Source: a virus
Length of the DNA: 36,205 nt
Virus record (IMG/VR): IMGVR_UViG_3300005581_000047
Span: 1 to 36,205 of that record
Reading direction: 5' to 3' (one strand)
The notes beneath the pieces are model-generated. The model was given only the letters and a program-made list of their open reading frames with translations. It had not been told where the DNA came from and ran no database searches. This document shows, one piece after another, positions 1-29,323 of this stretch (position 1 is the first letter of the stretch; the number at the start of each line of letters is the position of its first letter). The translations under genes and the position numbers were made by a program.

Positions 1-1365
1 ATCCTCAGGTTTTATTTCTTTTTGTGCCAAATCATTAAGTTCATTTACAAACACACTTAACTTTGGTTTCATGCCTCCTAATACCCAACATGCTATCATA
101 CGTGTAAAATCGAGGGGTACTTTTTTTGTAGTAGTACTTATCATATCATTTATAGTTGCGGAGATGACTTGTAGTGGTATATCAGCACCAATTTTTATGG
201 TACCTTTATCTGTTAAATAACTTCTATAACCAGCCAAATTTGATAACTTTTCATTCCAATCACAGTTATAACCATCAGTGTATTGAGGATGCCTAAAATA
301 TTCCTTTAATCTATCAGAGTCAATACCCTTACTCTTTAATTCTTTTTTTGTTTCTTCAGGAATTTTTTCACTTAAAGACAAATTTTTAATTTTTTGTCCT
401 TCTCCTTCTGAACCGTAATAATCATATGATGAAGGAAATGCTTGTTCTATACTTATTGTTGAATTAAGTTTTTGAACTTGGTCCCACAATATATGTTGTA
501 TTTCATGTACAAATGTATCTTCAGATTTAGCCTCAACTTTTTTAATATTGTAATCTTTAAACACACTAAAATAATAGTTTATATTAACACATACAGTATA
601 TTTTGGACAATCTCCGTTAATATACATTGTAATCCCCTCAGAGTTTTTAACTACCCAACCCTTTTTCTCAATGTTATTTAATGCGTTAAAATATTTATCC
701 ATTAAATTACTTAGAGTAAAATTTGATAGAAAGTCAAAAAATGACATATTATCCCATATTTTTTGTTGAACTTTAGGGTTTTTTAGATATTTCCTCCAAT
801 AACTTATCGCATATTTAAAACTACCATTCAATGCATTAGGTATTAATACTTGTTTTACCCCCACATCTTCTTTGGGCGACGATTTATAATCCATATCAAA
901 ACGTGTCTGTGAATCAACTTTACATGTCTTAGATATTTCCTCACAAGTTTTTAAAATCATAGTGGCGACCGCTTCTTTCATTTTTGATCCATATCCAGTA
1001 GTTTCACCCACATTATAACCATCTTTTTTTAACTGTATCCATAACTTATTAACTGTATCTATACCAGAATTTTTACCATATTTCCAAAACGCCAACGCTT
1101 TTGCGGTTTCATTACCAAAATCCCAATCTTTAGTAATATCCCAACCTAATACAATTAAAAAGTCTTGTACTCCTCCCGCACCTTCAAACGGGTTAGGCAC
1201 CCTTTTATCATTGTAATAGTTTTGGGCTGCGATTTGTTTATAATACCAACATCTGTTAGTCGTTGCACTAACCTCTTCAACAAGTAATTGACTTTCATTA
1301 ATAACCCTCTTTACTATTCTAAGTAAATCAGATTCAGTTAATTTAATTATTTTTTTCCCATTCAT
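1..1365 (-). CDS. Tagged HExxH metallopeptidase-like protein, partial (C-terminus beyond window)
   Basis: The reading frame runs open off the left edge, giving 455 visible residues. The N-terminus (MNGKKIIKLTESDLLRIVKR, then VINES) is a basic amphipathic tag ending in I-N-E, a possible prohead-protease site after about residue 24. Residues 287-291 read HEIQH, the HExxH zinc-peptidase signature, preceded by a predicted beta-rich stretch; the third metal ligand is not identifiable. The region around residues 60-130 is Trp/Lys-rich and of no family I recognise. It is the last gene of a minus-strand run, 19 bases below its neighbour. The tag suggests packaging in the virion; a zinc peptidase could act on the host envelope or on host proteins after entry, which is inference. 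Confidence 0.8.
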   Translation of the reverse strand, partial: MNGKKIIKLTESDLLRIVKRVINESQLLVEEVSATTNRCWYYKQIAAQNYYNDKRVPNPFEGAGGVQDFLIVLGWDITKDWDFGNETAKALAFWKYGKNSGIDTVNKLWIQLKKDGYNVGETTGYGSKMKEAVATMILKTCEEISKTCKVDSQTRFDMDYKSSPKEDVGVKQVLIPNALNGSFKYAISYWRKYLKNPKVQQKIWDNMSFFDFLSNFTLSNLMDKYFNALNNIEKKGWVVKNSEGITMYINGDCPKYTVCVNINYYFSVFKDYNIKKVEAKSEDTFVHEIQHILWDQVQKLNSTISIEQAFPSSYDYYGSEGEGQKIKNLSLSEKIPEETKKELKSKGIDSDRLKEYFRHPQYTDGYNCDWNEKLSNLAGYRSYLTDKGTIKIGADIPLQVISATINDMISTTTKKVPLDFTRMIACWVLGGMKPKLSVFVNELNDLAQKEIKPED

Positions 1366-1384
1366 AATCTTACATTACTTTAAT

Positions 1385-1768
1385 CTATGTGGAATATTTG
1401 GTTGGTTTTAATTTTTGATCATAATAATCATCACCATCGAAACCGTATTTTCTAATTATCATACCTTGTTTGTTTCTTTCCACAATTTCCCAACCGCTAC
1501 CATCAAACATTTCGTAATAAATCCATGGTCCACCGGGTTTGTTATGGTGAACAAACACATCGCCACCATTGTCAATTCCAAAGATTTTTAACTCCATACC
1601 AAATATAACTTCGAGTACTTTTTTAATCTCACTATTAGTTAAACCCATTTTATACATATCTGTGACGTATGGTGGTTTTACTATGGTAGCAATCTTTTTA
1701 TAAAGATTATTCTCTACATCTTCTTTAAGTATTTTTTTAACTATATTTTTTATTAGTATTCTATTCAT
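1385..1768 (-). CDS. Tagged single-copy PPY-domain protein
   Basis: A protein of 127 residues. I chose the ATG at 1768 over one 39 bases upstream because it places the tag MNRILIKNIVKKILKE at the very N-terminus, with L-K-E as the likely cut site. The remainder is one copy of a domain with Lys-Pro-Pro-Tyr near its start, a Met-Gly a few residues on and Val/Ile-Phe-Gly after a helix. The same domain occurs twice at the C-terminus of the 794-residue protein at 13490-15874. Function unknown. The shared domain and tag suggest both products travel in the phage head. Confidence 0.8.
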   Translation of the reverse strand: MNRILIKNIVKKILKEDVENNLYKKIATIVKPPYVTDMYKMGLTNSEIKKVLEVIFGMELKIFGIDNGGDVFVHHNKPGGPWIYYEMFDGSGWEIVERNKQGMIIRKYGFDGDDYYDQKLKPTKYST

Positions 1769-1846
1769 ATTATTTACATTGTCCCTAAAATAAACTTCTA
1801 ACTCCAACTCCCTTTGTTCTGGCGATGTTTATATTAAATGCACATA

Positions 1847-1855
1847 ATAAATATT
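1847..1855 (-). promoter_or_regulatory. ATATTTAT element (putative phage promoter)
   Basis: AATATTTAT on the minus strand, 78 bases before the chosen start of the PPY-domain gene and 39 before an upstream in-frame ATG. Confidence 0.35.
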
Positions 1856-1925
1856 TAAGTAACCATATATCCAACTCACGAATGAGGTGGGGATTCATAT
1901 ATTAATTCCTCAATAATTATTATTT

Positions 1926-2645
1926 TCAATTACACGAAATTATCATTTTACCCCAACTCATTTTTCCACATGAGGCTCTACCGCGATATGGAAGAACTAT
2001 ATTAAATTTACAAAATATCATTTTAAGTAAGTATAAACCAATTAATGTTACTAAACCAATAGTAAATATTGATAATACCAATGCCGGCATAGCAAATCCT
2101 CCAAAAAGAGTGATAACTGTCATGCTAGTACCAAAAAATTCATTAATCATTCCTTCACTAACTACTTCAGATGAGGTACCATTTGACAACATTAGTTCAT
2201 CTGCCTCAGATTTTTTAGATTTTATATTTTTAAATAATTGTTTTAGTTCCTCAATAGTTAATGTACTCAAAAACACCATAAATTTATCTATATACTCTTT
2301 AATTAAGTTAATAACCTCACCAACCTTTCCGGAAAATTTGTTTTTAATTGATGATCCAATTTTATTTTCAATATATCCATTAATATCACAAACTTCCAAC
2401 ATATTTTTACCAGATAATTCTTTTGTTAAATTCTCAGTACTACTCAAACTATCATTTGATATTCCAATTTCAGCCATAATATTATCACCACCATCAGATT
2501 TAAGTTCGTCAATCAATGTGTCAAATTTGTCATCGTAAATATCAAATTCTCTAAGTAATGTTTTCTGTTCACTTTTAGTTACACCCATTTCATATTCGAA
2601 AAGGTATTTAATTTTATCAATTTGTTGTTCTATATTACGTTTCAT
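1926..2645 (-). CDS. Tagged protein with C-terminal membrane segments
   Basis: A 239-residue protein. The ATG at 2645 is preferred over one 75 bases upstream because the upstream extension lies in an AT-rich leader holding an ATATTTAT element and the terminator of the previous gene. The N-terminus (MKRNIEQQIDKIKYLFE) resembles the MENLNEE tags of the genes at 4412 and 5778 and has an L-F-E site. The middle is charged and helical. The last 60 residues contain one long or two close hydrophobic segments beginning near a Gly-Thr-Ser-Met motif, followed by a Cys/Lys-rich tail. A capsid-packaged membrane-active protein, for example one aiding DNA entry, is possible but unproven. Confidence 0.75.
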   Translation of the reverse strand: MKRNIEQQIDKIKYLFEYEMGVTKSEQKTLLREFDIYDDKFDTLIDELKSDGGDNIMAEIGISNDSLSSTENLTKELSGKNMLEVCDINGYIENKIGSSIKNKFSGKVGEVINLIKEYIDKFMVFLSTLTIEELKQLFKNIKSKKSEADELMLSNGTSSEVVSEGMINEFFGTSMTVITLFGGFAMPALVLSIFTIGLVTLIGLYLLKMIFCKFNIVLPYRGRASCGKMSWGKMIISCN

Positions 2646-2658
2646 ATTTATTTTATAT

Positions 2659-2666
2659 ATAAATAT
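2659..2666 (-). promoter_or_regulatory. ATATTTAT element (putative phage promoter)
   Basis: ATATTTAT on the minus strand, between the terminator of the upstream gene and the start of the tagged membrane protein gene, 13 bases from the ATG. Confidence 0.4.
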
Positions 2667-2681
2667 GCCATTAAACATAAA

Positions 2682-2706
2682 AATCCGTATGTTTCTCATA
2701 CGGATT
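2682..2706 (-). terminator. Rho-independent terminator
   Basis: Ten-base-pair perfect stem AATCCGTATG / CATACGGATT with a 5-base loop, followed by five T residues on the minus strand. It ends the transcript of the 51-residue gene. Confidence 0.88.
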
Positions 2707-2729
2707 GTTTGTTTCAACATACTAATAAA

Positions 2730-2885
2730 CTAATATTTCGAATTTACATAAGGATTAATAATAATATGTTTGTCCTTTACAACCAATTTAGGGTTGTCCC
2801 TTTTTTTTTCAATCAACTTTTTAGTATATTTTGTAATCTCATTCATAATGTGAGTTGTCACTTTCATTTCTTTATGTTTAACCAT
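2730..2885 (-). CDS. Small basic protein of unknown function
   Basis: A 51-residue frame starting MVKHKEMKVTTHIMNEI and ending VNSKY. It is Lys-rich with no membrane segment and no recognisable motif. It is supported by its position: it fills the gap between the membrane protein upstream and a clear terminator hairpin that starts 24 bases after its stop codon. No homologue recognised. Confidence 0.6.
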   Translation of the reverse strand: MVKHKEMKVTTHIMNEITKYTKKLIEKKRDNPKLVVKDKHIIINPYVNSKY

Positions 2886-2905
2886 TTTTTTTTGTTTAAA
2901 TAAAT

Positions 2906-3196: not shown

Positions 3197-3216
3197 TTTT
3201 TTAGTTTTTTGTTATT

Positions 3217-4411: not shown

Positions 4412-5230
4412 TTATTTTTTCTTTGGGCTTTCATTCTCTTCGACAAATTCTTCAGGTATCTTAGTGTCCTTTAAAAATTTGTTATGTGATGCCTTATAAG
4501 ATTTTTGTGTTTCATCATCAGCATCTTGTGTATATTGCCAGTTCCAATATAAGTCTTCATTCACTTTAAAACCATAATAATGGTGAACACCCTTTTGTGT
4601 TTCAATTACATTTGCACCATTCCAATTCTGTCCAACACATATATATCCAGACTCAATGTCTTTAATAAGATTTGATTCACCTAAGGTAGTATGTCTATTT
4701 TGAATCCAAGTTAATCTTTCGATTAGGTTTTGGTAATACATATTTGTTTGTCCCCATCTAACAGATGAAAAGAATACAACTGCGTCAGACTCAAACAATT
4801 CCTTACTGATTTTCCAAAGTTCATCAGACGGTTCGTTAATATTAACCCAACATCTGTGATTTCCTGATGGGTTTTTTGTTTTATCTTTAAGTAATGCCTT
4901 TAATAGTCCACAAGAGTTACCTTCTGATCTGGAAACATTACCTTCACAAGGTAAAATTTTTAATTCCGTAATATCAATAAAAGTTGCCTTATCCCCTAAT
5001 TCTTCTTGTATGTACATTGCCAACAATTTAGATTTAGGTATATCTAAATTTTTAGAATCAAACTGATATCTATTAGAACAAGATAATATTAATACTTTAT
5101 TCTTTTCTTTTAAAACCTTAACGGTCTTTTTTAACTTCTTAAATGTGTCACTCATACCAAATTTTTCCGATTCAGTAATCACACCCATAATAGATTTAAT
5201 ACGACTTATTTCTTCATTTAAGTTTTCCAT
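4412..5230 (-). CDS. Tagged flavodoxin-fold NAD(P)H/FMN reductase-like protein
   Basis: A 272-residue protein. Residues 1-21 form a tag (MENLNEEISRIKSIMGVITE) with an I-T-E cut site, sharing its opening with the gene at 5778. From about residue 43 the sequence follows the flavodoxin-like reductase fold. There is a first strand VLILSCSNR where FMN phosphate would bind, then FIDITELKILPCEGN, a Cys-Gly a few residues later, and a strand AVVFFSSVRWGQTNMYYQNL before a helix with RLTW. That order is typical of NADPH-dependent FMN reductases. The C-terminus is Lys/Glu-rich. The enzyme core appears intact, so this may be a redox enzyme packaged in the phage head. Its substrate is unknown. Confidence 0.8.
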   Translation of the reverse strand: MENLNEEISRIKSIMGVITESEKFGMSDTFKKLKKTVKVLKEKNKVLILSCSNRYQFDSKNLDIPKSKLLAMYIQEELGDKATFIDITELKILPCEGNVSRSEGNSCGLLKALLKDKTKNPSGNHRCWVNINEPSDELWKISKELFESDAVVFFSSVRWGQTNMYYQNLIERLTWIQNRHTTLGESNLIKDIESGYICVGQNWNGANVIETQKGVHHYYGFKVNEDLYWNWQYTQDADDETQKSYKASHNKFLKDTKIPEEFVEENESPKKK

Positions 5231-5231
5231 A

Positions 5232-5762
5232 TTAACTATTTATTATATCACTTAATTTAGACTTAGGTGCGTAAAGTATTTCACCTTGCCCATTTGGTCT
5301 CAGTTGACTCATTTGTTTGGCGGTTGAACTTGAATATCTATTTTCATTCTCAAACCATTGCCCATCCTTAAATACAAATATAGGGTACCAATTATATGAA
5401 TATACTACATATGTGTTACCAACGTATTCCGCATGTGTATTACTACCTTTAAACGGTATTTTACTAGAAACTAAATCTTTAGCACTATTATTAGCGGATT
5501 TAATTTTTTTACTATAATTGACAGTTCTATTTAAATCACCATATTCAATATCACTTTTGAAATTGTTAAGGTATAATTGAAACATCTCAAATGCATCCAT
5601 ACCACTTAAGGCAAAATTATTTTTTAAAAATTGTACAACTTTAATGTAGTCTGTTGATGGGTTAAAACCTTCCTTTTTAAGGGTGTTGATAATATATCTA
5701 TCAAATTTATCTTTTTTAGGGTCAACCTCTTCTTTTAATATTTTTTTTATTATATCTTTCAT
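5232..5762 (-). CDS. Tagged member of the helical-domain paralogue family
   Basis: A 176-residue protein. It opens with the tag MKDIIKKILKEEVD, with an L-K-E site at residues 9-11. It then has the helical module shared by several proteins here: a FDRYIINTLKKEG helix, a VVQFLKNNFALSG segment and a FEMFQLYLNNF helix. The second half is rich in Tyr, Trp and Asn (NWYPIFVFKDGQWFENENRY) and looks like a small beta domain. It ends 1 base before the next gene starts, within a three-gene operon of tagged proteins. Function unknown. Confidence 0.75.
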   Translation of the reverse strand: MKDIIKKILKEEVDPKKDKFDRYIINTLKKEGFNPSTDYIKVVQFLKNNFALSGMDAFEMFQLYLNNFKSDIEYGDLNRTVNYSKKIKSANNSAKDLVSSKIPFKGSNTHAEYVGNTYVVYSYNWYPIFVFKDGQWFENENRYSSSTAKQMSQLRPNGQGEILYAPKSKLSDIINS

Positions 5763-5777
5763 AAATGTTGTAATATG

Positions 5778-6257
5778 TTATTTAGCCCACTCTTTTTTAC
5801 AGAAGTTTGTTAATTCCTTTGATCTACCTATATGAATTTCCGCACCATTCTGTTTTTTAACAAAAACCTCATTATCTTTCCATTTTTTTATTAAAATTTC
5901 TTTCTCAGACTTACTTAATTCAATTTCATCGTATAAATCAATTGCATTCTGTGGCATTGCAACAACATTACCTTTCAACCTTTGGATTAATTTTTTTATG
6001 CCTTGTGCAAAAGTACCACCCAACCAACCAGCATCAACTTTAACACAACCAATTCTGTTTTTATTATCCTTTAACCAACCACCAGAAACTTTTATAGTAG
6101 TATCATCATGAATTATAAAATTTTTATCACCTGGATCAGAATCGTTAGTAACGTCTTCAGTTTCCTCAGTATCTGTTTCAGTATCATCTTTAACTTCAGA
6201 AGACTCAAATAACATTAATTTTTTGATTCTTTTCAGTTCTTCATTTAAATTTTCCAT
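5778..6257 (-). CDS. Tagged protein of unknown function
   Basis: A 159-residue protein. The N-terminus MENLNEELKRIKKLMLFE is almost the same as that of the flavodoxin-fold protein two genes downstream, with L-F-E as the cut site. A 30-residue acidic Asp/Glu/Thr linker follows. The C-terminal 110 residues form a compact basic domain with Gly-Gly-Trp and Ala-Gly-Trp-Leu-Gly-Gly motifs, which I do not recognise. It is the first gene of the operon, with an ATATTTAT-like element (GGTATTTAT) about 20 bases upstream. Confidence 0.75.
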   Translation of the reverse strand: MENLNEELKRIKKLMLFESSEVKDDTETDTEETEDVTNDSDPGDKNFIIHDDTTIKVSGGWLKDNKNRIGCVKVDAGWLGGTFAQGIKKLIQRLKGNVVAMPQNAIDLYDEIELSKSEKEILIKKWKDNEVFVKKQNGAEIHIGRSKELTNFCKKEWAK

Positions 6258-8859: not shown

Positions 8860-9930
8860 TCAAAGCAAGTGTGGTTTAGACTCTACCATACCAGATGGTG
8901 TAATCTCAACTATCTCAGATTTTAATTGGAAAGTTTTGATAGTGTTTGATCCACTATAAGAAAGTGCTGACTTAACACCATCTGTTAATTTCTCTATAAC
9001 AATATCAACACTACCTTTATAAGGTATTAATGTAGACTCACCCTCTACGTGTTTTGTTGATTGACCGTGAGATGATTTAGTTTCTAAACTAGCGGAACCT
9101 CTATATTTTTTACATAGAATTCCATCACCATTCGTAATAATTTTACCTGGTGATTCTTTGGTGCCAGCCAATAGTGAACCTAACATTACACAATCTGCAC
9201 CAATTGATAATGCCTTTGCAATGTCACCACTACTTCTGATACCACCATCCGCCATAACAGGTACTTTAGATCCCTTAACACAATCAATTATAGATGTTAT
9301 ATTGGGTACACCGTGACCTGTTTGAATTCTGGTGGTACACAAACTACCACCGCCAATACCAACTCTTAATCCATCGACACCCCACTCACATAAATCAATT
9401 GCCGATTCTTCAGTAGAAATGTTACCCGCAATGATATCAACTTTAGAAGGTAGTGATTCCCTTAAAGACTTTATCATCTTTTTAACATTTATATGATGTC
9501 CGTGAGCCACATCAATCAGAATGATATTAACCCCACAACTTACCAATCGTTTAGCACGTTCAATGTCAGACTCACTAATACCTACCGCAGCCATAACTGG
9601 GATATTGGGAATTTCTGAGTGCCAATCATCGTACATAACTCCCCATTCTTCGTACATATGGTTATTAGTTATATATTCCAAAACTTTAGATACTTGTTCA
9701 CATTGTTTGTCAACAGTCATAAATCTATGTATACAACCAACACCACCTAATTCAACCATTTTAATTGCCATCTCATACCCACATACTGTATCCATACAAG
9801 ATGCGACATATGGTTGTAGGATTCCATATCTTCTACTAACCAATGTGGTTAAATTAATACTACCTCTGGTTTCTATTTCTGAGTACTTAGGTACTAATAG
9901 AATATCATCGTAAGTTAAGGCTCTCTTCAT
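8860..9930 (-). CDS. IMP dehydrogenase / GMP reductase family enzyme
   Basis: A 356-residue TIM-barrel enzyme. C198 in VGIGGGSLCTTR is the catalytic cysteine, and ADGGIRSSGDIAKAL with GSLLAGTKESPG forms the phosphate-binding site. The flap follows, with YRGSASLE and IPYKGSV. There are no CBS domains, so it is shorter than typical GuaB. The Arg-Tyr pair of the IMP dehydrogenase flap is not evident, so a GMP reductase-type reaction (GMP to IMP using NADPH) is somewhat more likely than IMP oxidation. Its start overlaps the upstream small gene by 26 bases. It probably adjusts the purine nucleotide pool during phage replication. Confidence 0.9.
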   Translation of the reverse strand: MKRALTYDDILLVPKYSEIETRGSINLTTLVSRRYGILQPYVASCMDTVCGYEMAIKMVELGGVGCIHRFMTVDKQCEQVSKVLEYITNNHMYEEWGVMYDDWHSEIPNIPVMAAVGISESDIERAKRLVSCGVNIILIDVAHGHHINVKKMIKSLRESLPSKVDIIAGNISTEESAIDLCEWGVDGLRVGIGGGSLCTTRIQTGHGVPNITSIIDCVKGSKVPVMADGGIRSSGDIAKALSIGADCVMLGSLLAGTKESPGKIITNGDGILCKKYRGSASLETKSSHGQSTKHVEGESTLIPYKGSVDIVIEKLTDGVKSALSYSGSNTIKTFQLKSEIVEITPSGMVESKPHLL

Positions 9931-16818: not shown

Positions 16819-18042
16819 TTACCAAAGAATGTAATATTCCTCACCGTTATAAATAAAAACATCTTTTGTTAAGTCACCAATGAAATATTCAGGACCATCT
16901 CTTTTTATTGCCTCATCTATTAGGTAATCTACATCACCTATCTTTAAAACGTTGTCGGCTATTGCCTCACCCATAGTTAAACTTAGTTCATCAACATAAT
17001 TTTCAATATCATAACTATAATTTTCTTTTAACTTTTCTTTCCTAATAGTCATATATAACTTTTCGAAATTCACACCCTCATATTTGGTTAATTTTTCGGT
17101 TACAACTTCTAATTCGTCTACTAATGAATCATAATCCTTATAATATTGATTATATTCATACTCCGCCTCTTCTAATCTGTTTTCAATTTTATTTAATTTA
17201 TTTTCTAAATCTTCTAATTCATCATCAAACTCTGTTGAGTAACTATCTTCATCATCACCATAATCTGTAATATCACCTAACCTTTCTATTTCTATCTCAA
17301 TAATTTTTTTTTCTTTCTCTAGTTTATTGATGTTATTATCTAACCCTAAAAAAGTTTTATCTATTTCTTTTTTAGTTTCAGTCAATTCATCAAATGTATA
17401 CTTCAAATCTTCGTATTCATCATATTTATCAATATTTTTTAAAAGATTTTCCTTTAATTCCACATCAATTTTAGATTTAAATTTACTTATTCCATATTCA
17501 TATTCGTTTTTAGCAATTTCAGTTACATTATAATCTAAATATTCTTGATTAATTTCAACATAATCTATTAAAAAACTATTACTAAAAAAATCCCATCCCT
17601 CCTCATCTATTTTTTCACGAATTTTCATATCCGCCTCTTTATGTACCGCATCAATGTCTCCAACATAATAAACATACCTAATACTATAACCAATAGAGGG
17701 TATCAATACTTTAAAAGAAGTAAGATTAGAAAGATATGTTTCAAATGGTTTAACAAAAACAGGATGTACGTCAATAAATTCTGCAAACGCCAATCTTTTA
17801 GTATCATACGATGAATAATCAAAATTTGGTATGGATATATTGTTAACGTCTTTAAAATCTATATTTTTATTTTCTTTATCACTATAAATTAAGATGATTT
17901 TTTGTATATCTTCAGGATCACTATTAAAATTGTTAACTAAATAGTCATAAAGTGGTTCCCACTCATCTGTTATAGAATTCTTTCTTAAATGGTTTAAAAT
18001 TCTTAAATCTAAAGGTGTTATATCATTAAAATCTATTTCCAT
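16819..18042 (-). CDS. Acidic coiled-coil member of the helical-domain paralogue family
   Basis: A 407-residue protein. Residues 8-55 hold the helical module (LDLRILNHLRKNSI, later DIQKIILIYSD). A Tyr-Val-Gly-Asp motif near residue 127 corresponds to IGD motifs in the next two paralogues. Residues 205-335 are a long acidic coiled coil, and the C-terminus ends with FIYNGEEYYILW. The paralogues at 20824 and 21907 have the same order. Unlike them it has no clear tag with a cut site at its N-terminus. It is the last gene of a seven-gene operon. Function unknown. Confidence 0.75.
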   Translation of the reverse strand: MEIDFNDITPLDLRILNHLRKNSITDEWEPLYDYLVNNFNSDPEDIQKIILIYSDKENKNIDFKDVNNISIPNFDYSSYDTKRLAFAEFIDVHPVFVKPFETYLSNLTSFKVLIPSIGYSIRYVYYVGDIDAVHKEADMKIREKIDEEGWDFFSNSFLIDYVEINQEYLDYNVTEIAKNEYEYGISKFKSKIDVELKENLLKNIDKYDEYEDLKYTFDELTETKKEIDKTFLGLDNNINKLEKEKKIIEIEIERLGDITDYGDDEDSYSTEFDDELEDLENKLNKIENRLEEAEYEYNQYYKDYDSLVDELEVVTEKLTKYEGVNFEKLYMTIRKEKLKENYSYDIENYVDELSLTMGEAIADNVLKIGDVDYLIDEAIKRDGPEYFIGDLTKDVFIYNGEEYYILW

Positions 18043-18043
18043 A

Positions 18044-18850
18044 TCAAAGCATAATATATCTTATTCCGAATTTATTTGGTTCATCAACATCATAATCCGT
18101 AATCTCTAAGTCGTCAGGTAAATTTGACTCATCTCTGGCAACTTCTTCATCACCTTTGATTGCCGTAATTACATACACTTTATCAGCGTATTTTTCAATA
18201 AAATCAAAACCATCTTCAACTTGTGGGAAGTCAGGATTCTCTGTCATAACCATAAACCATTTATGTATTATCTTAGTTACACTATGAATTTCCTCTTCGT
18301 ATTCACCATCACCACCACAATAATCACACTCTTCCTCTTTCTCACCACTACCATCACATTCATAACACGATTCTGTTTCACCATCAGAATCCTCAATTTT
18401 GCCTTTCCCATCACAATCTGAACATGTTACAGGTTCAGATCCCCTTCCGTTACATTCGTCACACGTAAGATTTTCAGTTTCACTGTAATAATCATAACCC
18501 TCCTGAGCCATTTCCATTGTCACAAAATATAACCCATTAGCAACATTTAATTCCTCAGTTAAAAAATCTTTAACGTCTAAATTTAAAATAAAAAGAAAAA
18601 TTAAATCACATTTATCGTCAACATCTAAATTGAAAAAACCCGTACCAAAAAAATTAAACATTTTGTTATAGGGTTTGCTTTCATTAAATTGTTGCCCCAA
18701 CTCTATCTTAGGGTAAATATACTGCCTTACCTCATTTTGAAGTTCAGGATATTTTTTATTAAGAACGTTTAAGTATTTTCTATAAACCTTATTATCTAAA
18801 TAAGATAAATTACCCTCAGATTCATTTAATATTTGAGTTAACTTAATCAT
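18044..18850 (-). CDS. Tagged protein with DnaJ-type zinc-finger repeats
   Basis: A 268-residue protein. It opens MIKLTQILNESEG, with L-N-E as the cut site. Residues 130-182 contain four CxxCxGxG repeats, the pattern of the DnaJ/Hsp40 zinc-binding domain, which holds two zinc ions and binds unfolded chains. There is no J domain and no DnaJ C-terminal domain. The N-terminal 120 residues are helical and unrecognised; the C-terminal 80 are acidic. A zinc-finger chaperone-like or binding protein carried in the virion is a reasonable guess. It is 1 base from the next gene downstream. Confidence 0.82.
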   Translation of the reverse strand: MIKLTQILNESEGNLSYLDNKVYRKYLNVLNKKYPELQNEVRQYIYPKIELGQQFNESKPYNKMFNFFGTGFFNLDVDDKCDLIFLFILNLDVKDFLTEELNVANGLYFVTMEMAQEGYDYYSETENLTCDECNGRGSEPVTCSDCDGKGKIEDSDGETESCYECDGSGEKEEECDYCGGDGEYEEEIHSVTKIIHKWFMVMTENPDFPQVEDGFDFIEKYADKVYVITAIKGDEEVARDESNLPDDLEITDYDVDEPNKFGIRYIML

Positions 18851-19110: not shown

Positions 19111-19542
19111 CTATCTTTTCTTACGACCTTGACAATGTGCTCTCTGAGAGAATCCTTTTGGATTATTACAATCTATGGAATTTTTATATTCTTTACTCCA
19201 CTTTTCATTCATCATATCATTATCATCTATATTCATAGATAACTCCATACCATACTTTTTAGTTTCATTCATTAAGAAATCAAATACTTGATCAATATTG
19301 TTTTTTGCCTCTGCAATGTGATCTTGTGCCCAATCGTGTCCATTTTCTAAAACACCCTCAACCATTTCTGGATCCATATCTAATAATATATCACATTGTC
19401 TTCTCATTTGTTGTAGGTTTGAGAAAAACATATATCTATTTCCTCTATCGTGATGTTCATCACCTTGTACATTAATTTGATTCATAGTTTTTTTAACCAT
19501 GTTTTTAATGTCTTCTTCTGTTAATTTAACTATTCTATTCAT
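19111..19542 (-). CDS. Tagged small protein with conserved NNPKGFSQRAHC tail
   Basis: A 143-residue protein. The N-terminus MNRIVKLTEEDIKNMVKK is of the same type as the HExxH protein at the left edge, though its L-T-E comes early and an N-Q replaces the expected N-E. The middle is helical and acidic. The last 20 residues contain DCNNPKGFSQRAHCQGRKKR, a Cys-containing basic tail I recognise from proteins of other large phages. It may bind nucleic acid or metal. Function unknown. Confidence 0.75.
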   Translation of the reverse strand: MNRIVKLTEEDIKNMVKKTMNQINVQGDEHHDRGNRYMFFSNLQQMRRQCDILLDMDPEMVEGVLENGHDWAQDHIAEAKNNIDQVFDFLMNETKKYGMELSMNIDDNDMMNEKWSKEYKNSIDCNNPKGFSQRAHCQGRKKR

Positions 19543-19565: not shown

Positions 19566-20813
19566 TTACCACCAAGTACCTCCACCTGATAATCCTAATT
19601 GTTTTGCATATCTAGGTAATCTACAACTCCAATAACCCGCACTACATTTATCATTTTTCTGCGGACAATTGTGTCTATCAGAAAACGCCTTTTTAGCCTT
19701 AGGGTCTCTAAGTTTTACAGACAAATTTGCCCCACCAGATTTTGCGCCAAAGGAAACTTTTTTAACCTTACCATTACACATCACATAAACATAAAACTTT
19801 TTACTTCCACCTCTTTTAGGTTTACTCAACTCAACAGTCTTACCTTTATATTCTGCCTCATTTATTTCCATATACTCATTTGGTATGTCCAACCAAACCT
19901 TTCTACCCTCATAGATACCTTGTTTACCAATGTCGGTTCTTATAATCTCTTCGTCACTAAATGATAAGTCGACTTTACCTTTGGTGTACAATTCTCTAAC
20001 TTCATTTATTAAGTTAAAGAAAGATTCACTACCATATCTATAAACTGATTCAGTTAATGGTATTTCATTATCTATATGATATCTTAAACCTTCACTAATA
20101 ATAGTTCTGTTTTCAGTAATTAACATTCTATCGTAGTTTAAGGATTCATTCTTTTTAGATTTATAGTTTTTAACTTTAATAGGACTTGGAGATTGTCCTT
20201 TCCCTGATTTACCATCATTTTTTTCTTTTTCTCTCTTACGTCTACACGCAGAATCTTTAGACTCCTGACTCATATTCGCTGCAACACTTTTTGCCCTACA
20301 AACTGGATAACCACCTTTATCGGAATCACCTCTACCACATTCAGGATGTCCGCCACCTTCTTTTTTTCTACAGATGTTAACCCAAGGCCCATTAGGTTGT
20401 TTACTACCTTTTGGTTTTTTCTTTGTTCCAAACCAAACTGCCAAATCTTCATCTAATCTTTCCGCAACTTCTATATCATCAAAATTATATGTTTCATTTC
20501 TTTTACCTCTACAGTAACTCCCACTACATCTTTTTTCTCCATCCAATCCTTTAACCTTACCTTTACATACTTGAACTGCATAACCGTTAGCGTACGCAGA
20601 AGGATAAACATCATATGTAGATTTTGCCGCACTTATACCTCTAGCACATAGTGTATTCTTTTTCTTTTTTTTACCTTCGATGATTTCTTCTGTACTATCT
20701 TCATCACCCAATTCCTTTTTAGGTTCTTCATCAGCAAATAAACCAGTGGATTTACCATCATGTCTCATTTCTAGTAACCTTTTATATTGACTTACGTTTA
20801 ATTTTATTTTCAT
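19566..20813 (-). CDS. Tagged multi-module Cys/Lys-rich protein
   Basis: A 415-residue basic protein. It opens MKIKLNVSQYKRLLE, related to the tags at 27424-29031, with an L-L-E site. Residues 55-110 contain YPSAYANGYAVQVCKG, of the DUF5872 type. Residues 125-200 contain WVNICRKKEGGGHPECGRG and YPVCRAKS, a second Cys-rich module. The last 85 residues (KFYVYVMCNGKVKKVSFGAK, then KLRDPKAKKAFSDRHNC, GYWSCRLPRYAKQLGL and GGGTWW) form a third module that I recognise at the C-termini of other phage head-associated proteins. The functions of these modules are not established. High Lys/Arg content suggests DNA binding in the head. Confidence 0.8.
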   Translation of the reverse strand: MKIKLNVSQYKRLLEMRHDGKSTGLFADEEPKKELGDEDSTEEIIEGKKKKKNTLCARGISAAKSTYDVYPSAYANGYAVQVCKGKVKGLDGEKRCSGSYCRGKRNETYNFDDIEVAERLDEDLAVWFGTKKKPKGSKQPNGPWVNICRKKEGGGHPECGRGDSDKGGYPVCRAKSVAANMSQESKDSACRRKREKEKNDGKSGKGQSPSPIKVKNYKSKKNESLNYDRMLITENRTIISEGLRYHIDNEIPLTESVYRYGSESFFNLINEVRELYTKGKVDLSFSDEEIIRTDIGKQGIYEGRKVWLDIPNEYMEINEAEYKGKTVELSKPKRGGSKKFYVYVMCNGKVKKVSFGAKSGGANLSVKLRDPKAKKAFSDRHNCPQKNDKCSAGYWSCRLPRYAKQLGLSGGGTWW

Positions 20814-20823
20814 TTTTATATAT

Positions 20824-21906
20824 TTAATCTGTTCTATAAATATAATAAGTTATCCCATTATACTCTATTTCATTTTCATTACCATCATAACCAGATAGTG
20901 TATTACCTCTGTCTTCATTTTCTGCAAGATATTTCTCTAAACCTGACTCATCAAATGTACAGTAATAATCTACTGCCTCAGAAAAACTTATCCCTAAATT
21001 ATTTATAAAATAATCCACTCCATCATTGTCAATCTCACTAATTATGTCTGATACAATTGTATCATATAACTCTTGTCTCGCAGTGTCAAATAGTTCTCTT
21101 AACTCATCACCCAATCCTTCGTAAATAGTTTGTTTGTCCGAAAGTTCTATTTCCAAGTCATTAATCTCTTCTTTTAATTCTTCGTATTCTTCAGTACCAA
21201 AAAAATCTTCATCATCATCTACCCTCTCATCTAATTCACCTTCTTTTTCTTCTAAAAGGTTATTTAACTCATCAATTCTTTCCTCTAATGTTGACAACTT
21301 ATCTTCATATTCTTCTCTACTATCGTACCCTGCATCTGATATTACATCTTCTTCACTCATGTCATCTATTCTATTGTCCGCACTTTCTTCTGCGTATTGT
21401 TGTACACCATAATCATCTAACTCTATAAAATCATCAATTGTATATCTATCCATATTTTCTATCCCACCAACTTCATCAACGTACCCATCAAAATAGTTTT
21501 CCATTGCATTACTAACCTCATCATCATCACCTATCGCATATATCTCATCTGAAGTTAAATCCTTATATGAATTTAAACCATGATGACTATATTCACTTTC
21601 TATTAATATCGGTGGTATGGCTAAAAATAGTGACAATGCAATTTGTTCATCATTATATGAAGAAGTGTCACTTACACCTTCTAAATCTACATCAGTTAAA
21701 TTATCGTAATTACCTAATTCATCATAATGATTTGTATATAGATGAAGTATTTCTATTTTAGAATCTGTATCATCTATAGATAATTCTTTGGTTAATAAAT
21801 CCCAAACTACGCTAGCATCTTCACCTTCACCCAACTTTTTGTTAAGTAACTTTAAAACCCTTTTATAAAAGGGAGTTATTTCGTTTTCTAATATTAATCT
21901 TCTCAT
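20824..21906 (-). CDS. Tagged acidic member of the helical-domain paralogue family
   Basis: A 360-residue protein. It opens MRRLILENEITPFYKRV; the I-L-E is the possible cut site. The helical module follows (FYKRVLKLLNKKL, then SKIEILHLYTNHYDELG). An IGDDDEV motif near residue 123, an extremely acidic coiled coil at about 195-265, and an end with IEYNGITYYIYRTD match the order in its neighbours at 16819 and 21907. Net charge is very negative. It lies 1 base from the next gene. Function unknown. Confidence 0.75.
   Translation of the reverse strand: MRRLILENEITPFYKRVLKLLNKKLGEGEDASVVWDLLTKELSIDDTDSKIEILHLYTNHYDELGNYDNLTDVDLEGVSDTSSYNDEQIALSLFLAIPPILIESEYSHHGLNSYKDLTSDEIYAIGDDDEVSNAMENYFDGYVDEVGGIENMDRYTIDDFIELDDYGVQQYAEESADNRIDDMSEEDVISDAGYDSREEYEDKLSTLEERIDELNNLLEEKEGELDERVDDDEDFFGTEEYEELKEEINDLEIELSDKQTIYEGLGDELRELFDTARQELYDTIVSDIISEIDNDGVDYFINNLGISFSEAVDYYCTFDESGLEKYLAENEDRGNTLSGYDGNENEIEYNGITYYIYRTD
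20836..20843 (-). promoter_or_regulatory. ATATTTAT element (putative internal phage promoter)
   Basis: ATATTTAT on the minus strand, 22 bases before the multi-module Cys-rich gene and inside the end of the upstream gene. Confidence 0.35.
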
Positions 21907-22908
21907 TTAATAATCTATTTTAATCATATAATATGGATTATCTCCACCGTATCTATACACCTGCCCATAAACACTCAATTGTTCAAAATGTACGTTACCT
22001 GACTCATCATCTATAAAACTATTCCAATCAAACCTAATATAGTATGGTATATGATTTATTTCAATTTTACCATCATTAGTTGTGTTAATGAATCCTCTTT
22101 CTAATAAATATTCAAAAACATCATCTAATTCATCATAATATTGATTAGATAAAAACTCAATACTATATTTTCTCAATTCTTCTATTATTTTACCTTTTTC
22201 ATCTTCCGAAGAATTTTCATAACTATTAACTAAATCGACTATATGTGGTTTACTAAACCTTTTTAAGTATCCCAATATTTGATCATCAGACATTTCAGAT
22301 TCTCTCTCTGTCGCCATCTCATCCGACAATCTATCTTTGTCGTAGTCTTCTATAAACAAATAATTTATATACTCTTCTGTACCTATACTAGCAATAATTT
22401 CTGTATTATCTGAAAAACGATCACGAAGATATTCTTTGGTAGCATTAACCATATTCCGATAGTCACCAATACAATAAAAATTTTCTTCTTCATAAACATA
22501 ATATATAGGCAAACCATAATATAATGAAGATTCTTTACTAATTAAAAATGGAGATGTTCTAAAATATTTAGATAAGATAATAACTTCATCGGAAAACATA
22601 GACTCCATTTCACTTTCACTTATTTTTACTAATGAATCAACATTTTCATAGTTACCTTCAGTATTGTACTCTACTATGAAAGTGTAAAATATATTCATCA
22701 TATCAGAATATTCTGTCGTTATGAATTCTTTGATAAAATCAAATAATGGTATATATACAGAATCTACCTTTACCATAGATCCATCAAACGGGTACAATGA
22801 ATTAGGTTTTTTTTCTAATTTATCTATAAAACGTCTCTGAATTGTATTGAGTACTCTCCTAATTCCGTTTCTATCTAACTCCTCACTTAATATTTCACTA
22901 AATTTCAT
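21907..22908 (-). CDS. Tagged member of the helical-domain paralogue family
   Basis: A 333-residue protein, first gene of the 22908-16819 operon. It opens MKFSEILSEELD, with L-S-E as the cut site; this is close in form to the T4 internal-protein tag. The helical module is recognisable though looser (LFDFIKEFITTEY, then MMNIFYTFIVEYN). It has FYCIGDYRNM near residue 155 and, near the end, IEINHIPYYIRFD, matching the paralogues, followed by a further 40 residues. An ATATTTAT element lies 22 bases upstream. Confidence 0.75.
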   Translation of the reverse strand: MKFSEILSEELDRNGIRRVLNTIQRRFIDKLEKKPNSLYPFDGSMVKVDSVYIPLFDFIKEFITTEYSDMMNIFYTFIVEYNTEGNYENVDSLVKISESEMESMFSDEVIILSKYFRTSPFLISKESSLYYGLPIYYVYEEENFYCIGDYRNMVNATKEYLRDRFSDNTEIIASIGTEEYINYLFIEDYDKDRLSDEMATERESEMSDDQILGYLKRFSKPHIVDLVNSYENSSEDEKGKIIEELRKYSIEFLSNQYYDELDDVFEYLLERGFINTTNDGKIEINHIPYYIRFDWNSFIDDESGNVHFEQLSVYGQVYRYGGDNPYYMIKIDY

Positions 22909-23172: not shown

Positions 23173-23670
23173 ATGAATGAAGAAGTTTTATCGTTATTAA
23201 ACGAACAAATATGGTTAGAGAATACGGCATCGTATTTTTACCTAAACCTATCTAAAAAATTTAGTGAAAATCATTATTACGGTATATCTAAATTTTTTCT
23301 CAATCAATCAAATGAAGAAAGAGAACATATGGTTAAATTGTTTGAGTATGTTTTAGAACAAGAGGGAAATCCAATAGTACCAAATTATAATTTTATGGAT
23401 GAAGGGGAATTAGAGTTTAACATACTCCAACTTTTTCAGATGTCATTATCCAACGAAAGAAAGGTTACTAATTCTATTAATAAGATTATTAGTAAGTGTA
23501 AAGAAGTTGGGGATTATACGACAGAAAATTTCTTACAGTGGTTCGTTATTGAACAAAGAGAAGAAGAAAATAAATTTAAAGAAATTATTGACAACTTAAA
23601 GATTGTTGGTGACGATAAAGTTGGGTTGTACGAGATAAACAAATCATTAAACGTCACTAAAACAGTTTAA
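23173..23670 (+). CDS. Bacterial non-haem ferritin
   Basis: A 165-residue protein, full length for an FtnA-type ferritin. The ferroxidase-centre residues are present: E16 in IWLENTAS, E49 and H52 in NEEREHM, E95 in SNERKV, and E127-Q128 in FLQWFVIEQREEE. The subunit would be a four-helix bundle forming a 24-mer cage that oxidises and stores iron. It is the second gene of a unit with bS21. Uses could be storing iron for phage enzymes, protecting against Fenton damage, or supplying iron for virion assembly; none is shown. Ferritin genes are rare in phages. Confidence 0.92.
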   Translation: MNEEVLSLLNEQIWLENTASYFYLNLSKKFSENHYYGISKFFLNQSNEEREHMVKLFEYVLEQEGNPIVPNYNFMDEGELEFNILQLFQMSLSNERKVTNSINKIISKCKEVGDYTTENFLQWFVIEQREEENKFKEIIDNLKIVGDDKVGLYEINKSLNVTKTV

Positions 23671-25997: not shown

Positions 25998-25998
25998 A

Positions 25999-26184: not shown

Positions 26185-26188
26185 AATA

Positions 26189-27184: not shown

Positions 27185-27199
27185 ATGTTATATTTTCTA

Positions 27200-27231
27200 C
27201 AAATATAGGTAATGTTTCTCAAACTACCAAA
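27200..27231 (-). promoter_or_regulatory. Host-like promoter for the M20 peptidase operon
   Basis: TTTG-N20-TATATTTG on the minus strand, 15 bases before the peptidase start. Exact consensus match. Confidence 0.82.
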
Positions 27232-27269
27232 TTTTTATTGAAAAATGTTTACAATTAAAAAAAATAGAG

Positions 27270-27278
27270 GATATTTAT
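27270..27278 (+). promoter_or_regulatory. ATATTTAT element (putative phage promoter)
   Basis: GATATTTAT lies 33 bases before the tiny Cys-containing gene. Confidence 0.4.
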
Positions 27279-27311
27279 AATATAATAACACTACAAAAAA
27301 CATTAGAAATT

Positions 27312-27416
27312 ATGGGATGCGGATGTAAAAGCAAAAAACCAGTTGCGAAACCAGTGACTCAAAGTAGTACTCAAACCACTACACAACCGAACACACAAAA
27401 TAATAACGGTAAATAA
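27312..27416 (+). CDS. Very small Cys-containing protein
   Basis: A 34-residue frame: MGCGCKSKKPVAKPVTQSS followed by a Thr/Gln/Asn-rich tail ending NNNGK. Tiny proteins opening MGCGCK are seen in other marine phages, and the low-complexity tail is typical of them. The Cys-Gly-Cys could bind metal or be modified; without a hydrophobic signal it is not a classical lipoprotein. It is the only plus-strand gene in this region, with its own ATATTTAT element and a sensible ATG. Function unknown. Confidence 0.6.
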   Translation: MGCGCKSKKPVAKPVTQSSTQTTTQPNTQNNNGK

Positions 27417-27423
27417 CGTTTAA

Positions 27424-27846
27424 TTACGTTAATTGATTTGCGGGCCCTCTAGTCGGACTTACACCCCACGGTGTGTTATCTATAGGGTTCGCAGGTCCTC
27501 TACCAACATCGGCAAGAGGCCAAACAGTAGAAGAACCACCAGCAGGTGCATCTCCTCCAGCCGCATCTACCTCATCTAATATTTCTTCAGTATAGTCATC
27601 TAAACCTATACCATATTCTGTAACAACAAAACCGTAGTTACCTTCTTTATCGTAATAACCTAAGTATATACCTTTATCATCGTAGGCAATAGTTTCATAT
27701 TCCTTACTATCAAAACTAAGTCTCTTAGGATTATTATCTACCCACTTAAGTATCATCTTATACCATCTCTTAGGGTCATCAACGGTTTCACCAAATTCTC
27801 TTAGTAAAACTTTTTTATATTGACTTTCAGTTATTATTATTTTCAT
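27424..27846 (-). CDS. Tagged protein with C-terminal RGPAN repeats
   Basis: A 140-residue protein. The tag MKIIITESQYKKVLLRE ends in L-R-E. A compact domain of about 75 residues follows (RWYKMILKWVDNNPKRL, then a Tyr/Gly-rich beta region). The C-terminal 45 residues are low in charge, with Ala/Gly/Pro linkers and RGPAN occurring twice (GRGPANPI and TRGPANQL), separated by a DNTPWGVSP spacer. The repeats look like short docking peptides. It overlaps the upstream tagged gene by 4 bases. Confidence 0.75.
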   Translation of the reverse strand: MKIIITESQYKKVLLREFGETVDDPKRWYKMILKWVDNNPKRLSFDSKEYETIAYDDKGIYLGYYDKEGNYGFVVTEYGIGLDDYTEEILDEVDAAGGDAPAGGSSTVWPLADVGRGPANPIDNTPWGVSPTRGPANQLT

Positions 27847-28415
27847 ATTTTTAAATTTACTCTCGACTCAACCTCATCTTCATCACTCCAATCTACATCT
27901 CTAAAATTATCTAATGTCATCTCCTCCATTATTTCTGCGTCTGAAGGTAAATCATAATCTAAATCAGGATTCATAAAATCAAGAGAATTCGAATCTAAAT
28001 ACATTCTTTCATAAATACCATTTTCTACCTTATTTATTGCTTCTTCTTTTGAATTGGCAGTAACTTCAACAAACCCAGCAATATATGTTCTACAAGATAC
28101 TACTGTTGGCATATCAACTGCAATTTTATATGTACCAACAAAATCTATTGGTTCTCCTATTAAACTATCATACTCTGAAATAGGTATAGGTAAGAATTTA
28201 TTTTTATAGTTATATAAAAGTATTTTAGTTTCATGATCAGACAAACCTAAATCCTCTATAATTGTTTTTTTTATTTCCTCATCAGATGAGTTTTTCTTAC
28301 CTAACAATTTAAATACCCTAACCATATATTGTTGGAAGGTATCACCTAACCTACCGTAGTTTTTATCTTCAGTAAGTAATCTATTGTATTGAGTTTCTGT
28401 CAATTTTATTTTCAT
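27843..28415 (-). CDS. Tagged member of the helical-domain paralogue family
   Basis: A 190-residue protein. The tag MKIKLTETQYNRLLTE ends in L-T-E. The helical module follows (QYMVRVFKLLGKK, then LGLSDHETKILLYNYKN). A second region with LIGEPIDFVGTYKIAVDMPT corresponds to LVGLPLEYYGKMNLPTSVNW in the next gene upstream, so the two are clear tandem duplicates. The C-terminus is very acidic. Function unknown. Confidence 0.78.
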   Translation of the reverse strand: MKIKLTETQYNRLLTEDKNYGRLGDTFQQYMVRVFKLLGKKNSSDEEIKKTIIEDLGLSDHETKILLYNYKNKFLPIPISEYDSLIGEPIDFVGTYKIAVDMPTVVSCRTYIAGFVEVTANSKEEAINKVENGIYERMYLDSNSLDFMNPDLDYDLPSDAEIMEEMTLDNFRDVDWSDEDEVESRVNLKI

Positions 28416-28416
28416 A

Positions 28417-29031
28417 TTATCCGTTAAAAGAAATATTATTTAAATCGATTTCTATATCACTTAAATTATCGTAGTCAGCGTCGTAATTTCTTTCCCATTG
28501 TATATCACCACTGTCATATTCTATTTCACTATTATCATAATCTATCACAACTTCACCGTCCTCAATCTTTCTTTGGAAATCATCGTAATTAGTGGCATAA
28601 GCCGATACTGTACCATCACCCCAACCACTTAAGTATCCAGTCCAGTTTACTGAAGTAGGTAGATTCATCTTACCATAGTATTCTAAAGGTAACCCTACCA
28701 AAGACTTCCAATCTTCCGAATTTTTAATAACTTCCGTTAAAATAGTACTATAGTTGTGCGTTAACAACATAACTTCATCATTTTCGTACCCCGTTAAGGT
28801 TCTTATTTCTTCAGCAATTTTTACAAAGTATGGAGATTCTAAAGGTATTTTTAGTTTGAGGTATTCACTACTAGGTTCAAAGTGTTTATTTTTCAAAACC
28901 ATAAATATTTTTGCAATGACAGGTGTAACTTTGTTATCTATGTTAGTAAAATCCACATCGCCATCTAAAAATGACTTATCATCTTCATTTAGTAATCTTT
29001 TATATTGACTTTCTGTTAACCTAATCTTCAT
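28417..29031 (-). CDS. Tagged member of the helical-domain paralogue family (tandem duplicate)
   Basis: A 204-residue protein. The tag MKIRLTESQYKRLLNE ends in L-N-E. The helical module is KVTPVIAKIFMVLKNKH and NDEVMLLTHNYSTIL. Then LVGLPLEYYGKMNLP aligns with the downstream neighbour. An acidic, Tyr/Asp-rich C-terminus follows. It sits 1 base from both neighbours. The pair probably arose by duplication and diverged quickly, as expected for exported or injected proteins under selection. Confidence 0.78.
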   Translation of the reverse strand: MKIRLTESQYKRLLNEDDKSFLDGDVDFTNIDNKVTPVIAKIFMVLKNKHFEPSSEYLKLKIPLESPYFVKIAEEIRTLTGYENDEVMLLTHNYSTILTEVIKNSEDWKSLVGLPLEYYGKMNLPTSVNWTGYLSGWGDGTVSAYATNYDDFQRKIEDGEVVIDYDNSEIEYDSGDIQWERNYDADYDNLSDIEIDLNNISFNG

Positions 29032-29032
29032 T

Positions 29033-29323
29033 TTAGTTACTTTCTACTTCTTCTTTTTTATCGTCTTTTCTATGTGTACCTATAGTTTTAATAACCCCTA
29101 AGAATTTACCACCAAAGGTGTAACCTGCAAAAAGAACCATTGCATATTCAAGTGCATCAATAATAATTTTAAATTTTACAATGTCTAACTGAGTAGTCTT
29201 ATTCATACCAGCAACCATTAATACACCTAATGTAACATAGTATGCAATAATAGCCCATAATAAATAAATTCTACTTTGAGAGAACATTCCATTTTCTGTT
29301 AGAATGTCTTTAAAAATTTTCAT
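29033..29323 (-). CDS. Tagged membrane protein, possible holin
   Basis: A 96-residue protein. I chose the ATG at 29323 over a GTG 24 bases upstream because the product then opens MKIFKDILTENG, very like a capsid-targeting tag with L-T-E. Two hydrophobic segments lie at about residues 20-39 and 58-78, with a Lys/Glu tail. It could be a holin; alternatively, as the tag suggests, it could be a membrane protein delivered with the DNA. It leads the tagged-protein operon 29323-27424. Confidence 0.7.
   Translation of the reverse strand: MKIFKDILTENGMFSQSRIYLLWAIIAYYVTLGVLMVAGMNKTTQLDIVKFKIIIDALEYAMVLFAGYTFGGKFLGVIKTIGTHRKDDKKEEVESN

Follow-up and report, generated by a model that had tools for sequence, protein, structure and literature searches.

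The IMG/VR virus record IMGVR_UViG_3300005581_000047 (positions 1 to 36,205, the whole stretch of 36,205 bases that we call the window) encodes a series of proteins whose first residues resemble one another. A preliminary description of this DNA listed fifteen such proteins, likened their N-termini to the capsid-targeting tags of phage T4, and proposed that they are virion-internal proteins injected with the DNA. What do these tags do, and how far does their use extend? In T4, according to passages of three papers, ten N-terminal residues are enough for packaging, the prohead protease gp21 cuts after L/I-x-E, and internal proteins are injected into the host (PMC9026906, PMC9958956, PMC9391042).

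Here, we describe a computational analysis of these tags in the window, in the larger genome that contains it, and in other records that carry them. We interpret the tags as capsid-targeting leaders subject to cleavage of the gp21 type, a reading to which we assign a probability of about 0.8 and which would place the tagged proteins in the virion. The proposal of the preliminary description is supported because an S77 prohead protease was found, 38 genes carry strict tags, the terminal glutamate of one tag class is near-invariant, the tags are N-terminal and are swapped between proteins, the [LI]xE motif is modestly depleted from the cargo, and the capsid protein has a site of the same type.

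Short N-terminal tags on fifteen proteins of the window

All fifteen reading frames, which we name by their end coordinates (Table 1), are present, and their tags agree with the preliminary description: [LI]xE closes the tag in 14 of the 15, with the Glu at residues 7-24. The misfit already recognised there, the 19542 protein, reads MNQ, Gln standing in place of Glu, and its orthologs (L003-L006) have Gln as well. The statement that the proteins share little beyond the N-terminus is mostly so; it fails for the 28415 and 29031 proteins, which are 28% identical over their full length.

The tags were sorted into classes modelled as A, MKIIITESQYKRLLxE; B, KIIRLTESDLxRIVxRVIxE; C, IIKKILKE; D, NLNEEISRIKxMMGxxxE; and F, ENFDLKKFLVEN, from Flavobacterium phage vB_FspM_immuto (immuto). 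Hidden Markov models (HMMs) of these classes recover ten of the fifteen (1365, 1768, 5230, 5762, 6257, 19542, 20813, 27846, 28415 and 29031); the tags of the remaining five (2645, 18850, 21906, 22908 and 29323) are shorter or looser and are backed by orthologs alone. Orthologs exist for four of these five and keep [LI]xE in every case, two of them with a change (LNE to LKE, LSE to IKE). Altogether nine proteins have orthologs, of which eight retain [LI]xE, its middle residue sometimes altered, and the 19542 protein retains Gln. Because the ortholog loci span only part of the window, the missing orthologs of the 2645 protein and of five further proteins are uninformative.

A prohead protease and its head genes

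The whole window is contained, reversed and at 99.997% identity, in the 166,352-base IMG/VR record IMGVR_UViG_3300027659_000009 (G001), which was therefore used as the rest of its genome; the 212 genes of G001 come from a simple, uncurated gene caller that overlooked a start codon further upstream for at least three of them. Other tag-bearing records compared were G006 (291,867 bases), G009 (296,330 bases) and immuto. The preliminary description had tied its proposal to a gp21-like prohead protease elsewhere in the genome, and G001 encodes one: family S77 (PF03420) matches positions 159346-159813 with E 6.8e-26, above the cut-off (E 9.1e-25 at the protein level), and the 36-kb window itself has no S77 protease. 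The protease lies at 159214-159903 of G001. By phmmer, the G001 protein aligns with T4 gp21 (PDB 5jbl) over residues 49-216 (E 8.8e-19). Its ALGEADHPE has His where the 5jbl chain, presumably an inactive mutant, reads Ala, and its GVSSRG pairs with GVASRG; we take these two motifs to hold the catalytic His and Ser.

The head genes of G001 follow the order terminase-like, portal-like, two open reading frames, S77 protease, acidic scaffold-like protein and gp23-type major capsid protein (MCP). The terminase-like and portal-like labels were assigned by eye, and the homologous immuto genes are annotated as such; the portal and scaffold align with their immuto counterparts, and tblastn with the capsid protein matches 2500 phage records, many of them named gp23-type. 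The arm of the MCP ends ..YENQASALLNE/S, and the same column reads LINE/A in G009, G006 and L138, which puts [LI]xE at this site in four of five aligned sequences. At the protease's own N-terminus, GIL[VI]E stands in five of six aligned sequences. For T4, passages of two papers give a loss of 65 residues from gp23 (PMC9958956) and LIE at residue 9 of gp21 (PMC9026906). A further record, G016 (268,739 bases), has two S77 matches (31291-31773 and 233494-233940), either two proteases or a mis-joined contig.

Co-occurrence of protease and tags was sampled from 80 of at least 120 class B loci, every distinct tag-bearing record of at least 100 kb (n=19) being searched; among the matches listed, S77 is found in 16 of the 19. 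A control of 25 records of at least 30 kb, chosen by an arbitrary 14-mer and including just two that exceed 100 kb, gave S77 in one. G008, G014 and G015 have parallel match positions and look like near-copies, and G008, one of the three large records lacking S77, seems from its match offsets to be missing the part where G015 has the protease.

Number and position of the tags

The count of tags over the rest of the genome, also proposed in the preliminary description, came to 38 of 212 G001 genes by strict HMMs, with 41/321 in G006, 39/344 in G009 and 5/208 in immuto, counts that are partly so by construction because the seeds include G001 and immuto tags. Among these strict-tagged genes, [LI]xE with Glu at about residues 9-34 is present in 36/38, 38/41, 35/39 and 5/5, respectively. 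Run against full-length proteins from all four genomes, the HMMs matched at the N-terminus in 124 of 132 cases (A 43/44, B 47/47, C 12/15, D 17/20, F 5/6), and shuffled N-termini gave a single match. A looser list, assembled from patterns and by eye and including short tags whose Glu is built into the pattern, holds 61 G001 genes. The tagged share of genes is 11-18% by strict count in three records and up to 29% by the loose list of G001; the stretch of G001 between 95.5 and 138.6 kb has strict tags on 26 of its 62 genes.

The motif itself is enriched near the N-terminus of G001 proteins. In 182 genes of at least 80 amino acids, [LI]xE with its Glu at residues 8-30 was observed 138 times against 64 expected from internal rates; at residues 7-24 there were 129 against 50 expected, and at residues 31-48 there were 56. 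A chance origin of the tags was rejected on this excess, the near-invariant Glu, the position of the HMM matches and the shuffled N-termini.

A near-invariant terminal glutamate

The DNA pattern used for class B, LTESDLxRIVxRVI, stops before the Glu and occurs in at least 120 stretches of IMG/VR. Among the matches listed, Glu stands two residues past RVI in 114 of 115 distinct protein matches, and the lone exception has a stop codon immediately. The residue following the Glu is unconstrained (Q 46, N 19, S 16, E 12, others). In 106 of these 115 matches the closest Met is found six residues ahead of LTESDL. A relaxed pattern gave the terminal Glu in 156/158. The DNA pattern had no match in GTDB genome contigs, and the class B tag model matched 20/20 tag-bearing records and 0/25 random ones.

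Tag swapping, motif depletion and cargo

Related bodies occur behind tags of different classes. The body of the 19542 protein (RYMFFSNLQQMRRQC; the RYMFFSNL protein) carries a B tag in the window and close relatives and the C tags IKQVLRE/D in G006 and IIKKVLKE/E in G009; the AEYQGR module was found behind A, B and C tags. This evidence is limited to named examples, the pair totals being redundant and based on loose patterns.

If the protease cuts after [LI]xE, cargo should be poor in internal sites, and a modest effect of this kind is seen in a pool of 1541 clusters from many records. Past residue 40, LxE/ExL is 0.79 in 241 tagged and 0.99 in 1300 untagged cluster representatives (Fisher p 0.002; bootstrap ratio 0.79, 0.70-0.90); against untagged proteins without an early site p is 0.009. 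Tagged and untagged proteins are alike in LxD/DxL (p 0.37) and VxE/ExV (p 0.94).

The cargo is diverse. One protein each in 60 of the loose-list proteins has Pterin_4a, Phage_lysozyme2, DUF192, PG_binding_1, LysM, DUF6576, DnaJ zinc finger, SH3_3, YusW or DUF5417, and the 61st, of which the first 304 residues were searched, has glucosaminidase; among the PHROG matches (first 25 of 32 families) are endolysin and transglycosylase families as well as ones for tail tape measure and tail proteins. In the Pterin_4a protein of G001, whose N-terminus reads MNLRENIRRVLMVISE/SKDW, the Ser directly behind the Glu is the first residue of the Pfam match; the homolog in G006 reads MNE at the tag end.

Candidate polyproteins

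The 20813 protein is built of modules that occur separately elsewhere, with protease-type sites between them. Its DLAVWFG module is preceded by RLDE in G001, by ILTE in G006 and directly by the C tag IKKILRE in G009, and its AEYxGK module is preceded by INE in G001. We collected 81 distinct copies of the AEYxGK module with a recognisable start (from the best 80 of at least 591 loci, and other loci). Among these listed copies, 79 are fused to upstream sequence, and Glu, which makes up 7.7% of those proteins, stands directly ahead of the module in 58 of the 79. The border reads [LI]xE in 45, the same motif one residue further up in 9, V, M or F for L/I in 13, another residue before xE in 1, and nothing of the kind in 11.

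S77 status was established for 32 module-bearing records, 12 positive and 20 negative. [LI]xE lies directly at the border in 9 of the 12 positive records (G001, G006, G009, L338, L352, L389, C48C1, HTVC008M and immuto) and in 4 of the 20 negative ones (p 0.0035); because the border motif goes with S77, polyproteins may be cut as well. Of the three other positive records, L384 and Melnitz-3 have V or M at the border and pT24, whose S77 match is weak, has none. Among negative records, L358, L371, L383 and CRP-6 have [LI]xE within a few residues of the border, and twelve have no border motif (L348, L350, L356, L357, L363, L376, L397, CRP-2, CRP-3, CRP-901, Kolga and HTVC112P). Three of these twelve, Kolga, HTVC112P and CRP-901, have the module as a protein on its own that starts Met-Ala-K/T-Y. 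Roseobacter phage CRP-6, which has no S77 match, joins the module in one chain (L318, 889-1578) ahead of an S78_2 (XkdF-type) head protease; this fusion hints that the module at the end of the 20813 protein may itself be a head protein.

A second complete tag stands mid-chain in G009_145, a tandem of 430 amino acids (L303, ~17421-18713, equal to G009 97421-98713): it runs from MNLQEHIRKVLKE through protein and ELTE/KCWKGYTQKG to the internal tag NLQESIRRIIRE and more protein. The product of 13490-15874 in the window is a polyprotein candidate that we put forward with low confidence, there being too few comparable PPY copies to count; its sites around HAD_SAK_1 and the PPY stretches are ITE/S at 335, LNE/S at 423, LKE/N at 436, VNE/S at 609 and INE/S at 705. 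An SVYRYGS stretch considered as a module border was dropped, for it sits inside one contiguous domain.

The window and its surroundings

Table 1. Tagged proteins and a candidate polyprotein in the window (a slash separates the tag from the residue behind it).
Feature	Positions	Strand	Evidence and remarks
Tagged protein, class B tag MNGKKIIKLTESDLLRIVKRVINE/S	1..1365	-	HMM 7e-15; runs off window, 470 amino acids in G001; PG_binding_1 below cut-off
Tagged protein, class C tag MNRILIKNIVKKILKE/D	1385..1768	-	HMM 1.1e-10; similar 'PPY' stretch twice in 13490-15874
Loose D-like tag MKRNIEQQIDKIKYLFE/Y	1926..2645	-	By reading; unmatched by strict HMMs; outside ortholog loci
Tagged protein, class D tag MENLNEEISRIKSIMGVITE/S	4412..5230	-	HMM 3.7e-7; FMN_red E 0.02, below cut-off
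Tagged protein, class C tag MKDIIKKILKE/E	5232..5762	-	HMM 7.7e-12
Tagged protein, class D tag MENLNEELKRIKKLMLFE/S	5778..6257	-	HMM 4.4e-13
Candidate untagged polyprotein, 794 amino acids	13490..15874	+	HAD_SAK_1 domain, two 'PPY' stretches; opposite strand to most neighbours
Short tag MIKLTQILNE/S, DnaJ-type zinc-finger-like body	18044..18850	-	Orthologs LNE/LKE; DnaJ_CXXCXGXG 1.3e-5, below curated cut-off
Class B tag without Glu (MNRIVKLTEEDIKNMVKKTMNQ)	19111..19542	-	G006/G009 homologs have class C tags with Glu
Multi-module protein, class A tag MKIKLNVSQYKRLLE (orthologs RLLSE)	19566..20813	-	Borders RLDE/DLAVWFG at ~residue 121, INE/AEYKGK at ~residue 318
Short tag MRRLILE/N	20824..21906	-	ILE retained in orthologs
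Short tag MKFSEILSE/E	21907..22908	-	Ortholog MKFSQIIKE/E
Class A tag MKIIITESQYKKVLLRE/F	27424..27846	-	HMM 1.5e-13; orthologs
Class A tag MKIKLTETQYNRLLTE/D	27843..28415	-	HMM 1.9e-12; orthologs
Class A tag MKIRLTESQYKRLLNE/D; paralog of 28415 protein	28417..29031	-	HMM 1.3e-13; orthologs RLLKE; alignment
Short tag MKIFKDILTE/N, small hydrophobic protein	29033..29323	-	Orthologs; alternative GTG start 8 codons upstream possible

The window has a low G+C content, and no tRNA genes were found in it. Distant blastn of 4412-6257 against named phages gave no matches, and tblastn with a 28-residue tag gave a single, irrelevant one. Some of the nearest named relatives lead us to guess a host of the Bacteroidetes type; those relatives include phages of other hosts too. 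Elsewhere in the window, 8860-9930 encodes an IMP dehydrogenase/GMP reductase-like protein with about 40% identity to its counterparts in Microcystis phage Mel-JY01 and a 484-kb uncultured phage, and the product of 23173-23670 looks, by eye only, like a ferritin-type protein.

Discussion

In the mechanism that we propose, the leader would bind the scaffold core or the inner prohead during assembly, and the cargo would be enclosed when the shell closes. The S77 protease, whose gene and motif are both observed, would then cut after (L/I)-x-E at the leader end and free the cargo, and may also cut between the modules of some cargo polyproteins. The freed proteins would stay in the head and, on the precedent of T4, probably enter the host with the DNA; that most of the cargo is injected is, by this analogy, a fairly probable extension of the leader hypothesis.

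Tags that route proteins to the virion might do so mostly for tail, baseplate or retained head parts rather than for injected cargo. Tagged proteins with wall-hydrolase or wall-binding domains, together with the tail families (tape measure included) and endolysin families among the PHROG matches, are what such a role would yield; we nevertheless consider it unlikely, given that the T4 protease is described in a passage of PMC9958956 as acting in the prohead core and that the tags end in the capsid arm's own type of motif. Still more improbable, in our judgement, is another localisation, docking or stability signal with S77 co-resident by descent. The phages that bear the tags are indeed related to one another, a short helical segment could have many binding partners, and size-matched co-occurrence with S77 is not significant alone, but a near-invariant terminal Glu followed by a free residue, a depletion that is restricted to [LI]xE and does not extend to VxE or LxD, and the link between the module border and S77 all suit cleavage better than docking. 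Shared ancestry fits tag swapping, depletion, ortholog retention and the tag on a known domain less well than it fits co-occurrence.

We find it scarcely credible that the shared N-termini are duplication leftovers or a 5' DNA cassette with no function at the protein level. Some class B tags do appear to be recent copies, because codon agreement at identical residues of eight such tags (259/389) exceeds the 195 predicted by codon usage. Against a cassette, the upstream regions have no clear common motif (lowest uncorrected p 0.033 for 6- and 7-mers, 38 tagged versus 174 other genes), residues past the Glu are free, the tags recur in many records, and 60 of the 61 loose-list proteins are 9-26% identical to the first in a joint alignment.

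Several observations nonetheless count against capsid-targeting leaders cut by S77. Within ten residues, [LI]xE is present in 20/22 matches of class A, 17/21 of C, 5/8 of D and 4/6 of E, some of the pattern matches being false, and the 19542 protein and its orthologs lack the Glu. The immuto MCP site is IVSE/A (V-S-E), with V for L/I although VxE is not depleted in cargo, and V or M likewise replaces L/I at some module borders; four records without S77 (L362, L373, L379 and L404, all fragments below 100 kb) have [LI]xE directly at the border. The depletion is modest, and in G001 alone none was seen against shuffling (z +1.4). There is little N-terminal excess of [LI]xE in immuto (58 at residues 7-24, 46 at 31-48) or RM378 (22 and 20), and the HMMs were seeded in part with tags of G001 itself and with three of the five from immuto. 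Wall-hydrolase, tail and endolysin matches may mark tail or lysis proteins. Structure models were weak, with a mean pLDDT (the model's own confidence score) of 72 for the Pterin_4a protein, residues 1-5 below 50, and of 48 for the 29031 protein. Finally, three of the 19 large tag-bearing records lack S77, the size-matched comparison at 30-100 kb (6/24 tag-bearing versus 1/23 random) gives p 0.10, and co-occurrence is a weak leg of the argument because the records are related and some appear to be near-copies.

The principle is that of T4; the differences lie in the scale, in the many tag dialects that replace one another and in the protease-type sites between cargo modules. In T4, passages of PMC9026906 and PMC9958956 describe IPI, IPII, IPIII and Alt as likewise having a short N-terminal leader ending in (L/I)-x-E, with a gp21 (S77) protease, a gp23-type capsid and diverse cargo. 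These are four tagged proteins, whereas G001 has 38 by strict and about 60 by loose count, with leaders of 7-24 residues in several classes and, in some cargo, sites between modules. The ejection proteins of phiKZ, 201phi2-1 and SPN3US are, in a passage of PMC9026906, likewise head proteins that a divergent relative of gp21 cleaves behind a Glu, and 19 of 89 virion proteins of 201phi2-1 are processed. The phiKZ motif is given there as S/A-x-E (PMC9026906), whereas the tag ends and capsid site of G001 have L/I three residues back. Class B is excluded from this comparison, its search having itself fixed the I. Propeptides of the phiKZ type are long, and they are not known to form a single short tag used again and again. 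Large Bacteroidetes phages, the bS21 phages (PMC9723584) and moraphages (PMC12619734), have the same types of head gene, a TerL-portal-protease-MCP cluster and predicted Bacteroidetes hosts; the portions of these texts available make no mention of tags.

Flavobacterium phage immuto (Immutovirus) resembles G001 in its S77 protease, gp23-type MCP, homolog of the last part of the 20813 protein, and leader-like N-termini, many near head genes: four of its five leaders (ENFDLKKFLVEN...LLKE) lie at 103-126 kb, where those genes are found too. It differs in using a dialect of its own, ENFDLKKFLVENKLT...LLKE, in 5/208 genes (by a model seeded with three of them), and in the MCP site VSE/A. The nearest cultured tag-bearing phage among those compared, immuto, which grows on Flavobacterium sp. 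LMO8, is a practical experimental system. Open PMC text yielded no virion data for immuto and no paper for four tag strings; on capsid targeting it yielded papers on T4, P1, P22, phiKZ-type phages and phages in general.

Taken as a whole, our proposal is that a widespread T4-like group uses interchangeable leader dialects to load between a tenth and nearly a third of its gene products, protease-cut polyproteins included, into the capsid and delivers them to the host as infection begins, and in this full form we lean only slightly towards it. If it is true, the first 20 residues would be enough to tell, for dozens of unannotated proteins per phage, where they reside, how they mature and when they are likely to act, in IMG/VR phages of 100-300 kb, and capsid contents would be easier to predict from sequence. 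New tags would be at hand to load foreign proteins into phage heads. A passage in a T4 review calls the localisation of core proteins mysterious (PMC9958956), a question that the many tag dialects beside many scaffolds would make testable. The tagged proteins would also form a pool of early-acting anti-defence or takeover functions, for which T4 IPI and IPIII, as described in part of PMC9391042, are precedents.

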